This document shows, one piece after another, positions 18,070 through 22,131 of a stretch of 32,195 nt of DNA. The notes below the pieces were generated by a model. It worked only from the letters and a program-made list of their open reading frames with translations, made no database searches and had not been told where the DNA came from. The position numbers and the translations under genes were made by a program. Numbering within the stretch: position 1 is the stretch's first letter; the number at the start of each line of letters is the position of its first letter. The stretch is from NCBI GenBank assembly GCA_016185105.1, contig JACPOE010000028.1, positions 1 to 32,195 of the forward strand, written 5' to 3'. Source of the stretch: Bdellovibrio sp. Lineage in GTDB: Bacteria; Bdellovibrionota; UBA1018.

Positions 18070-18588
18070 ATGAAAAAAAGTTTTAAATTAATAGTCTTCG
18101 CTATTTCGCTATGTACCGTTAACGTCGCATCTGCTTATCAAGAGGCTTGGAAGTTGATCGACAATGATTGTGATCGTCAAAGCGGGCATCTTACTCTAGT
18201 CTTTCTAACTAAAGGTTCTTACCTAGCTTACGATGTTGGAACCGCTGAGTCTAAGTGTGATCTTATTCTCCCTGCTAAAGTGGGTGTTAATGAAGAGGAA
18301 GCCTATTTAACGATTTCTTCTTTAGACTCCTACAGGTTTGAGCCCCCAACCTGTGCCCCGAAGAAACCATCCCTCCTGGATAAGAAAAAGACTGAAATTT
18401 ACCAAAAGTTCTTGGCAAAAATGCAGAGTCTCTTCCAGCTGAATCCGCAATATTCTTTCGTTGAAAAAGAAGGAATTCTGGTTCTAACTACCGACCATGA
18501 TCCCTACTATTGCAAAGGGCCCGCAAAGCTCACTTTCAGGAAAATTGAGGGTGTTAAAAGTTCAGCTAGCTCTAGTAGTAATGAGTGA
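18070..18588 (+). CDS. Small secreted four-cysteine protein, unknown function
   Basis: Not recognised. A clear Sec signal peptide covers residues 1-22 (KKSFKLIVFAISLCTVNVASA, cleavage before Tyr23). The mature 150 residues contain four cysteines (34, 63, 95 and 148), enough for two disulfides in the periplasm or outside. The pattern of short hydrophobic strands and an ending PAKLTFRKIEG suggests a small beta-rich domain, followed by a Ser-rich tail. The ATG has only a weak GGA upstream. The gene faces a minus-strand gene and their ends overlap by 17 bases. It is the first of four neighbouring signal-peptide genes. An inhibitor or chaperone for the nearby peptidase is conceivable, but nothing in the sequence shows it. 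Confidence 0.75.
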   Translation: MKKSFKLIVFAISLCTVNVASAYQEAWKLIDNDCDRQSGHLTLVFLTKGSYLAYDVGTAESKCDLILPAKVGVNEEEAYLTISSLDSYRFEPPTCAPKKPSLLDKKKTEIYQKFLAKMQSLFQLNPQYSFVEKEGILVLTTDHDPYYCKGPAKLTFRKIEGVKSSASSSSNE

Positions 18589-19273
18589 ACGGAATGAGTT
18601 CGAAACGGCTCCAAATCAGAGGCTGATCATCCGAAAAAAAATATTTTCTGTAGGACTCAATTTTAAGCGTACCTATCTTTTTTAGATCTTCTCCGAGCGC
18701 TCTTTGCGATGCCAAGACTGACAGGCGATAAAACACGGGGAAATTCTTTTCTGGGGGCGGTGGAATTCGAATCAGAGTTGCTTGAACCTGGGAATCGAAG
18801 GTGTCAAAACAAACTACTTGGCGGTTAAACCTCACCTGAATCGAGACTAGTTTTGAGGGTTGAACCGAAACCGAAAAATCTAGGGCGCTCAGGGGGGCTT
18901 CGACAAGCTTGATAGGGGTTAGTTCCCTCCAGGCTTTGCTCACTTTTCTGTCGGCAGGAACAGGGGTCGAAAAATGCGCCTTCCAAAAATTTGTGGCTGG
19001 ATCGAAGGTGCCAGTTAGAACCTCCAGAGACTTCAAGCTGGGCGTAGCAAGGTCGATTAGATCTAGGAGTTGAGTGCTTGCTAGCAATGAGCCTCTAAAA
19101 GGGACCACCGGTACATAGGGAATATCTGGTTCCCCCTGAAAGTCCCGTAAGGCCTCGATCGCTTTTTCAACGGTGACCCGAGCGATCAATCTGGGGTCCG
19201 CGAAAGCAGTCCCCGCATAAAAAAGGACGAAGACAAGCGTTTTACCCAGGCTCAGGTTTTTGGTAGAAGCCAC
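18572..19273 (-). CDS. Predicted secreted protein, unknown function
   Basis: Not recognised (233 residues). A signal peptide spans about residues 1-25 (positive NLSLGK, then TLVFVLFYAGTAFA, cleavage before DPR). The rest is mixed and soluble, with a Pro-rich segment IRIPPPPEKNFPVFYRL and a single cysteine (VVCFDTF). No catalytic motif is visible. The start is GTG 19273 with no strong Shine-Dalgarno site; I kept it because the signal peptide begins right after it. The gene diverges from the peptidase gene with about 50 bases between starts, so they may share a control region, and it converges on the four-cysteine protein gene with a 17-base overlap. Confidence 0.7.
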   Translation of the reverse strand: MASTKNLSLGKTLVFVLFYAGTAFADPRLIARVTVEKAIEALRDFQGEPDIPYVPVVPFRGSLLASTQLLDLIDLATPSLKSLEVLTGTFDPATNFWKAHFSTPVPADRKVSKAWRELTPIKLVEAPLSALDFSVSVQPSKLVSIQVRFNRQVVCFDTFDSQVQATLIRIPPPPEKNFPVFYRLSVLASQRALGEDLKKIGTLKIESYRKYFFSDDQPLIWSRFELIPFTHYY

Positions 19274-19322
19274 GAGCCGGTGTATATCTGTAACCTTTGA
19301 ATTACAAAAGAGAAAATCGGAA

Positions 19323-20900
19323 ATGGCTCATTACCACAGTCGCAAGAAGGAAGAATGGCCATGTTTACATAGTTATAGTATAGAAAGGCTTATGAGAGCC
19401 GGGCTCGCCCTTCTAGCTTTATTGGGAATTCTAACTGCTTCGAGCGCTTTCGCGGGAGCTAGGGGCCTGCTCGAAAGTAAGATCGACCTAAGAACCGTAG
19501 TTCTAGATGTGAAGTCTGCTGAGATTAGGGCTCTTCAAAAATATCAACGTAAGCTTCTTTCTTGGATTGGCCCTTTTGCTATAGCTGAAGGGATTGGTCC
19601 TGTTTTTGTAGACTGGTGTGGCCTGACCGGAGGCGTAGTTCGGGTTACAGATGCTCGAGGCGTTCATCTTTTTTTTATTCCGATCGGAGCTCTGGAGCCT
19701 CTTTTCCCTCCTGGAACCCCTATCAACATAGTTATGGAAGTTCGTGCACTCCGGGAGAGTGTCAAAGCTACCGAAAGGGCGTTGATCCAAACTGAGGCTC
19801 TTCTGGAAAATTTTGCCATCGAAATTGAAAAGCTTAGGAAAGCTGTTGCAGACGAAGAAGGGCGTTTTGGAACGGACTTCCTGATGGTGGATACTCCCTG
19901 GAAAATATCTGAAAAACAGTGTCGCGAGATTACCTTTGATCGGCGAGAAAAAATGGGCCCTGATTCCGACCAAGGAGCCAAACAGACTTGCTGGGCACAT
20001 GCGGCCGCTGCCCTATTGGAAGAGCAAATTTGTGAGTCGGATCCCAGGAATTGTGGTCTTCAGGTTTCCAGAAGCGCTGTCGCTGAAGGTTCTTATAGAG
20101 AAAGAAATCTCTATCGGTTGGCAAGGCCAGGAACAGGATTTACCGAAGACGCGCTCAGACACTATTCTCTTCCGGAAAACAGAACCGTCTGTTTGGCAAG
20201 ATACGCTCCTGATACATCCGGAGCTACCGAGGCGCAGCTTTTCGCAGATCTTAGGGCGTTATTTAAGCTTTTTAAAACAAATGGGTTACTGCTAGATCGT
20301 AGCCAATACACGATGACCTTTTTCAGGACGCTATTTAGAGTCAAAGAATTCCTGGAAAAAAATCGGCATGAGTGGAATTTGAGGACGGGGGATGAAAGCA
20401 AAATTCTGAGTTCGACGACTTTCCAGGCCACATTGTCTGCGGCGAAAGATGCCGATGAGTTCATTGAAAAGGTCATGCTTTATTACTGTAATGTCATGGA
20501 TCAGCCCCAGATCAATCGACGGCTCCCACTTGTGCCGACTTTTCGTCACTATCCGCTGTTGAGACCAAACGAACGTTTGAACGTGGAGGCCTTTTTGGGT
20601 GAAATTCGGCATGCGACCAAAGAAGGGCACAGCCTAGCGCTTGACCTGTGTTATTTCCCTTTAGTGTCCGAGAGCTCGGAGAACGTGCAGAACCATTTCT
20701 TAAATCCAAATCATTGTGGAAGACATGTTGTGGTACTCAACGGTGCAAAGTGGAACCCTGACACTCAGAGCTGTCAAATTCATATCAAAAATTCTCATGG
20801 TTCCCATGGGAAGTTCAGATCGGGTTGGTACGATGCTGAAGTAGTTTTTGAACAGACTTTTGGAATAGACTACTTTGAGCTTCTTCTCGATAGTGAATAG
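19323..20900 (+). CDS. Secreted papain-fold (C1-like) cysteine peptidase, predicted
   Basis: A predicted exported cysteine peptidase. Counting from ATG 19323: the catalytic cysteine motif is DQGAKQTCWAHAAAALLE, with Gln217 (oxyanion hole) and Cys223, matching the papain pattern DQG..C/S-CWAF. The histidine is His468 in HCGRHVVVLNG, and the asparagine is Asn490 in IHIKNSHGSHG, where papains have NSWG. The order and spacing fit a papain fold. Before it, residues about 138-185 look like a coiled coil and may form a propeptide. ATG 19392 is an alternative start that would give a textbook 23-residue signal peptide (RAGLALLALLGILTASSAFA). From 19323 that peptide is preceded by a charged 23-residue leader. 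The ORF can also be extended to TTG 19260. The function is inferred from motifs; no named subfamily is recognised. Confidence 0.75.
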   Translation: MAHYHSRKKEEWPCLHSYSIERLMRAGLALLALLGILTASSAFAGARGLLESKIDLRTVVLDVKSAEIRALQKYQRKLLSWIGPFAIAEGIGPVFVDWCGLTGGVVRVTDARGVHLFFIPIGALEPLFPPGTPINIVMEVRALRESVKATERALIQTEALLENFAIEIEKLRKAVADEEGRFGTDFLMVDTPWKISEKQCREITFDRREKMGPDSDQGAKQTCWAHAAAALLEEQICESDPRNCGLQVSRSAVAEGSYRERNLYRLARPGTGFTEDALRHYSLPENRTVCLARYAPDTSGATEAQLFADLRALFKLFKTNGLLLDRSQYTMTFFRTLFRVKEFLEKNRHEWNLRTGDESKILSSTTFQATLSAAKDADEFIEKVMLYYCNVMDQPQINRRLPLVPTFRHYPLLRPNERLNVEAFLGEIRHATKEGHSLALDLCYFPLVSESSENVQNHFLNPNHCGRHVVVLNGAKWNPDTQSCQIHIKNSHGSHGKFRSGWYDAEVVFEQTFGIDYFELLLDSE

Positions 20901-20910
20901 TGCGTAAGCT

Positions 20911-22131
20911 CTATTTCTTACCCCGCGGTTTTGCCTTTTCTGGCGAATCGATAACAATATCTTGAAATGTTCCCTTTAGCCCGGCCTCAACGTCATAATC
21001 GACACCTAAAGATACAAGTGTAAAGTGAGGGGGGGCACCGATGGTTCCCGCTACTGTAATATACGGCGGATTCTTAAATTGAATCTCGGTAGTGTAATCG
21101 AAGTGCTCACGGTCTTTTCTTGTTTCGCCATAAGTATTGGGGGTGTTTTGGGAAGCTCCATAAAGGAGGAGTGTAGCCAATTTCATGTGCGGATTTTTTG
21201 CTAAATCCTCTTCAAAATCTATGTTCGCTTTTCGGAGGACATAGTCCTTCCAATCTGCGGATTTCTCCTTGAGTTCTGGTTTTTGAATAGGAGGCTTTGT
21301 TTTCAGAAAATTCTTGTCGTGCGTAATCTTGGAGACATCGGCGTTTGCTTTCTCGAGTTCCCCTGCGACAGCACTCACAAGTTGTTTCCTGATTAGAACA
21401 TTAGCTTCTACGCTGTTTTTTTCCTCCGCAGAAAGTTTGGCTTTAAAGGCGTTCCAAAAGTTTAAAACGGTGTCGCGTACGCCATTTATTTCGATAAAAG
21501 TGTTACTCCCTCTTTCCGCTGTGTCTCGATCAATTGCGGTATAGTCGAATTTTTTATCTTCTCGAAGTGAAACACGTTTATTCATGTCTTTCAGCCCGTT
21601 CTTAACAAGACACTCGACAATTTTTGCCCGTCTTTGAGGGGGTACTGCGCTTAGAACAGCTGCGAACTTTGAAAACTCTAATGAGTTTTTTAGTTCTTTT
21701 CCTTTAGCCATGAAAGACTTTTTCATTTTTGAGTCCATTTTGGCCAGCATTGCCGGGTTCAGTGCCTGAAACTCTCGATAGGCTCCCAACTGGGAATAGA
21801 AGTCACGATAGAGATCTAGGTCGTCAAGCGCTTCGCGGCCGAGTAATTTTTCAACTGCCGCTGCAGCACCTGTAGCCGATGCAGCGCCTACATGCGAAAG
21901 AATTCCTCCGGCTCCGGGTACTCTTAGGCAGGGAGGAGAGTTCGAGTCGGATTGGGTGTCGGTTGCCTCTAGCGAAGACTCTCTACTTTTATCCGATTTT
22001 TCCTGGGGAAGCGGGACAAAGCCCTCAGGATTTCTGAAATAGGAGTCAAAGTCTTTGCACGTCAGGTCTGCGGAATAGGCATTGCTGGAGATCACCGTCA
22101 GAATCAGCAAGCTGGTGTAGAATTTCGTCAT
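20911..22131 (-). CDS. Large predicted secreted protein, unknown function
   Basis: Not recognised (406 residues). A signal peptide covers residues 1-20 (KFYTSLLILTVISSNAYS, cleavage before ADLT). A charged Ser/Asp/Glu-rich stretch follows (about 41-66), then a Gly/Ala-rich segment (about 72-92, PGAGGILSHVGAASATGAAA), then a long helical, charged middle and a more strand-like end (PPYITVAGTIGAPPHFTLVS). Cysteines are at 25, 68 and 174. There is no catalytic motif that I can name. It ends only 10 bases from the peptidase gene, which converges on it, with no terminator between. GGGGG just before the ATG is the ribosome site and lies in a hairpin. Confidence 0.72.
   Translation of the reverse strand: MTKFYTSLLILTVISSNAYSADLTCKDFDSYFRNPEGFVPLPQEKSDKSRESSLEATDTQSDSNSPPCLRVPGAGGILSHVGAASATGAAAAVEKLLGREALDDLDLYRDFYSQLGAYREFQALNPAMLAKMDSKMKKSFMAKGKELKNSLEFSKFAAVLSAVPPQRRAKIVECLVKNGLKDMNKRVSLREDKKFDYTAIDRDTAERGSNTFIEINGVRDTVLNFWNAFKAKLSAEEKNSVEANVLIRKQLVSAVAGELEKANADVSKITHDKNFLKTKPPIQKPELKEKSADWKDYVLRKANIDFEEDLAKNPHMKLATLLLYGASQNTPNTYGETRKDREHFDYTTEIQFKNPPYITVAGTIGAPPHFTLVSLGVDYDVEAGLKGTFQDIVIDSPEKAKPRGKK

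Follow-up and report, generated by a model that had tools for sequence, protein, structure and literature searches.

A divergent papain-like peptidase family of Bdellovibrionota and a probably exported member with His in place of Trp177

Described papain-type enzymes and the kinship of the window protein

Peptidases of MEROPS family C1 (PF00112), which includes papain and cathepsins K, L and S, carry their active-site residues in the order Gln-x5-Cys, His, Asn-Ser-x-Gly. In papain, the Trp of the last motif (Trp177) shields the Cys–His pair and binds the P1′ carbonyl. The second-best related family for the protein described here, PF03051 (Peptidase_C1_2; aminopeptidase C of the bleomycin hydrolase type, C1B), consists of enzymes that are typically cytosolic. 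Marasmius oreades agglutinin (MOA) is an active papain-like protease of low activity that has Gln (Gln276) in place of Trp177 (PMC4764322, PMC8244254), and replacement of this Gln by Ala lowers activity without abolishing it (PMC8244254). By this analogy, Trp177 may be a usual rather than an essential feature of C1 enzymes.

We analysed a 32,195-nucleotide stretch of DNA from Bdellovibrio sp. (contig JACPOE010000028.1), hereafter the window, which encodes a protein of this kind (Table 1). The open reading frame runs through all its codons without interruption, and its translation contains DQGAKQTCWAHA, CGRHVVVLNG and IKNSHGSHG. A nucleophilic Cys lies six residues downstream of an oxyanion Gln (Q217..C223), in register with cathepsin K, followed by the catalytic His (H468) and the Asn of an NS.G motif (N490); the Trp that follows Asn-Ser in papain is absent. 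The residue numbering and the reading of NSHG for NSWG in the earlier note were correct on recheck. Literature searches turned up no account of this family from Bdellovibrio, and a papain-family review makes no mention of the genus.

Table 1. Features of the peptidase gene and its immediate neighbours in the window.
Feature	Position	Strand	Remarks
Divergent neighbour, orphan protein, signal-like N-terminus	18572..19273	-	No Pfam/NCBIfam match
Putative exported papain-like (C1A-related) peptidase gene	19323..20900	+	525 aa from ATG 19323; 502 aa from ATG 19392
Probable Sec signal peptide MRAGLALLALLGILTASSAFA	19392..19454	+	AFA motif, predicted cut before Gly; by eye
Orphan N-terminal extension	19455..19880	+	Helix, short beta-rich stretch, coiled-coil-like helix; low-confidence model and heptad scan
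Catalytic domain	19881..20900	+	Helical insert separates Cys half from His/Asn half
Gln217 (papain oxyanion Gln19) to Cys223 (nucleophile Cys25), QGAKQTC	19971..19991	+	Family and cathepsin K alignments
His468 (papain His159)	20724..20726	+	Family and cathepsin K alignments
Asn490-Ser-His492-Gly, AAT TCT CAT GGT	20790..20801	+	Papain Asn175 kept, Trp177 to His
Convergent neighbour, orphan exported-looking protein, 406 aa	20911..22131	-	No Pfam/NCBIfam match

Searched singly, the window protein scores 12.1 bits against Pfam Peptidase_C1 (PF00112), below the gathering cut-off of 20.7, and has no significant match in the PDB; PF00112 has no match in the window's own genome, and NCBIfam holds no relevant model for the family. 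The kinship emerges at the level of the family. Among PDB entries, a profile built from eight family sequences picks up aminopeptidase C and cathepsin L (E about 1e-6). A 40-member profile matches cathepsin K at E=8e-14 and reaches 156 PDB sequences with E no greater than 0.01, the best 60 of which are papain-family enzymes. The matches of this larger profile include cathepsins K, L and S, ficin and cathepsin C, with both halves aligned: the family block pvrdQgsiglCyAfa faces PVKNQGQCGSCWAFS of cathepsin K, and HavvviGrRw...iRNSWG faces HAVLVVGYG...IKNSWG. Moreover, 16 of the 40 members match Peptidase_C1 in Pfam on their own at E<0.01. Since the best of these reaches 2.3e-11, the claim is one of a distant relative that works like papain. 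These comparisons make it clear, at the level of sequence, that the family is homologous to C1A; the window protein, as a member of a family whose profile matches C1A, is a distant C1A relative. The papain assignment of the earlier note is thus borne out through the family profile, as is its view that no named subfamily can be given; a Pfam C1 search, which it had proposed, succeeds for those 16 members and falls short for the single protein.

Differences from C1 are nevertheless considerable. Besides His for Trp177, the window protein has Lys at the position of Cys22, which in papain forms the Cys22–Cys63 disulfide; a large helical insert parts the two halves, placing Cys and His 245 residues apart (family median 246); and an I29 propeptide is not recognised. 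The C1B family is also within reach, as the PDB chains 3pw3 and 5wdk match the eight-sequence profile and 4 of the 40 members match PF03051, but the larger profile scores higher with cathepsin-type C1A enzymes. Papain-type folds also serve amidase or acyl-transfer reactions, and one of the 40 members has a weak match to Peptidase_C39_2, so a papain-fold hydrolase catalyzing such a non-proteolytic reaction can be envisaged. Against this, C1A peptidases are the best matches by a wide margin, and the C1 Asn and the Gln before Cys are in register; we consider this the least probable of the alternatives weighed here. AlphaFold2 runs with four sequences gave low-confidence models (pLDDT 50.4 and 44.2, pTM 0.32 and 0.38), for which the best Foldseek E values, 0.64 and 0.47, were not significant; among the Foldseek matches listed for the low-confidence domain model, most were papain-family chains.

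Signal, N-terminal extension and surroundings of the gene

Translation from Met24 (ATG 19392) gives a compact Sec signal peptide, without a lipobox Cys, that by eye is cleaner than that obtained from ATG 19323; the real start may therefore be 19392. Export by the Sec route is most likely, in line with the earlier note, which had called the protein secreted.

The gene stands alone, with both neighbours in the opposite orientation, and its third-position GC (0.44) is similar to that of adjoining genes. Exported-looking proteins with no significant Pfam or NCBIfam match surround it over 18070-22131, namely the two neighbours of Table 1 and the product of 18070-18588 (+); the products of the two neighbours have no relatives in the 57 nearest genomes. 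Membership of a defence system was considered and dropped, there being no PADLOC match, as was a mobile or phage origin, since searches of plasmids, phages and viral contigs came back empty.

The region between the signal peptide and the catalytic domain was described earlier as a putative coiled-coil prodomain. A coiled-coil look is indeed present at residues ~138-185 but is confined to them, so that no single long coiled coil spans this part of the protein; residues ~93-120, between two helices, appear beta-strand-like in a low-confidence model. For residues 45-186 (the ~140-residue extension), a search of 369 genomes gave no convincing relative; one weak match (E=0.002) extends over 37 residues in a short frame. 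No Pfam family, Inhibitor_I29 included, matches the N-terminal region at an E value of 1 or below. Of the two closest relatives, introduced below, L023 has a helical N-terminal extension of about 100 aa that aligns only at its end, and L049 has none. From first Met to catalytic Cys, the family median is 68 residues. Because the extension is an orphan and is missing from L049, the case for a prodomain is weak; a propeptide role is possible for the window protein's own extension, which is not a feature of the family.

These observations bear on the proposal in the earlier note that the protease is used against other cells. A secreted effector or antibacterial toxin, with the N-terminal extension acting as a delivery or pro-domain, would suit an exported protein with an unusual N-terminal region from a phylum known for predators. 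However, Pfam and NCBIfam searches recognised no toxin-delivery, immunity or defence gene beside the peptidase, the neighbours being orphans; plasmid and phage matches are lacking; the family occurs in over half of the phylum genomes searched; and L049 does without the extension. We therefore regard this proposal as very unlikely.

A Bdellovibrionota family with repeated loss of Trp177

When the window protein alone served as query, 7 of the 57 nearest other genomes yielded distant relatives. Most of these are exported-looking proteins, ~290-520 residues long, that share its Cys, His and Asn. The eight-sequence profile extended the family to 197 of 369 Bdellovibrionota genomes, often with several copies per genome, and found no second member in the window's own genome (1.69 Mb, 82% complete). 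Where the genome of a relative has a name, it is a Bacteriovoracaceae or Oligoflexia MAG, and a crude, unvalidated rule classes 55 of 91 members as signal-like. Of the 369 genomes searched, 185 contain proteins scoring above the Pfam C1 cut-off, and many of these matches are strong and canonical; canonical C1A papains and the divergent type thus coexist in the phylum.

Within 95 members gathered for alignment, Gln, Cys, His and Asn are kept save in fragments or misaligned rows, and the catalytic Cys is present in all 92 rows carrying a letter at that column. Among 40 aligned members, Cys389, His468 and Asn490 never vary, and conservation is at least 90% for Cys200, Gln217, Cys223, Cys290, Gly474, Cys484, Trp at 492 and Gly493. 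The window protein shares with the family its profile similarity together with C200, Q217, C223, C290, C389, H468, C484, N490 and G493. As the same order of Gln, Cys, His and Asn recurs in homologues across the phylum, its presence here is not due to chance. The earlier claim that the catalytic residues are present is thereby upheld, and the loss of Cys or His from homologues, which would have told against it, was not what the family comparison revealed.

Several loci deserve separate mention. L013 (G048:C27) and L040 (G017:C146) each consist of two halves in different frames or separate ORFs, which suggests frameshifted copies or assembly errors. Directly downstream of one member, L053:6735-7688 (+) encodes a second papain-like candidate containing PAPDQGETVTCLFVAS and HIILIVGFDD, then RDHNG, by eye resembling C39-type peptidases. 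Upstream of the closest homologue, two near-identical fragments (L051:375-962 and 2142-2519, +) resemble a group II intron reverse transcriptase/maturase in its C-terminal part.

Turning to the altered motif, the residue after Asn-Ser was readable in 93 of the 95 members: Trp in 80, His, Tyr and Phe in 3 each, and Arg, Glu, Ala and Lys in 1 each, the Glu coming from a misaligned row without the motif. A contig scan with an alignment of closer relatives yielded three loci. The closest relatives of the window protein, L023 (NSRN; pair E=4e-53) and L049 (NSHG; blastp 1e-32), both come from genome G118, which belongs to another family of the phylum; L023, also recorded as L051, is from Oligoflexia bacterium nN3bin31, and L049 is from the same genome. 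Both keep Gln, Cys, His and Asn and have lost Trp at an identity of about 29-30% to the window protein, and all three share an MGPD/VGPD-xxQ start. In a tree built without the Asn-motif loop they form one clade (support 99/97); the loss of Trp is therefore a trait shared by the clade. In the window, His492 is encoded by CAT, which differs from the Trp codon TGG at all three bases, so a single miscalled base does not explain it. Codon and clade-wide distribution led us to reject sequencing error, and the occurrence of the loss in three proteins from two genomes led us to reject one-off decay. On this evidence, the NSHG substitution is real and inherited within a small side branch of the family.

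A wider quick tree places L099 (NSHG) as sister to L089 (NSWG) with support 100. Since L089 has Trp, His arose separately in L099, and His at the Trp177 position has originated independently at least once more. L112 and L063, with Lys or Ala at this position (NSKG, NAAG), are placed together in that tree with support 85 and represent a possible further independent loss of Trp.

The main rival to an active enzyme also arises from this clade. Its members could be pseudoproteases or strongly weakened enzymes whose cleft would serve to bind peptides or proteins, catalysis having become dispensable: all three carry another residue in place of Trp, and the motif of L023 has decayed to NSRN. As Gly is lost there too, relaxation towards a pseudoenzyme is conceivable. 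Pseudoproteases usually lose Cys or His, however, and Gln, Cys, His and Asn are retained in all three proteins at ~30% identity, which makes this reading unlikely.

Proposed activity and its meaning

We propose, with a probability of about 0.7, that the window protein is an active, perhaps slow, Sec-exported cysteine endopeptidase using papain chemistry. Cys223 would attack the substrate carbonyl, with His468 serving as its general base/acid, Asn490 orienting His468 and Gln217 completing the oxyanion hole. A hydrogen bond to P1′ could still come from His492. Activity is expected, possibly slower or with changed primed-side specificity, and the substrates would most likely be proteins degraded or processed in the periplasm or outside the cell.

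A described enzyme that likewise lacks Trp at 177 is MOA, which differs in carrying a compensating Trp where papain has Gln19, a residue that the window protein retains; in needing Ca/Mn; and in anchoring its His with Glu, where the window protein has Asn. MOA is considered convergent with papain, so the likeness is an analogy only. Given that MOA is active without this Trp, an active enzyme with altered kinetics is the best guess for the window protein. A more specific version is doubtful: that in the subclade, where the Trp177 shield is gone, a His at this site serves P1′ binding or tunes the Cys–His pair, giving an active, possibly pH-dependent centre with more than one origin in Bdellovibrionota.

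Published protease work found for the phylum concerns other enzymes, for example serine proteases. The family described here is a large, mostly unannotated group of exported-looking papain-like proteases in a phylum that has been investigated for predation, and the repeated replacement of Trp177 within it would provide a natural test of how far papain catalysis depends on that residue.
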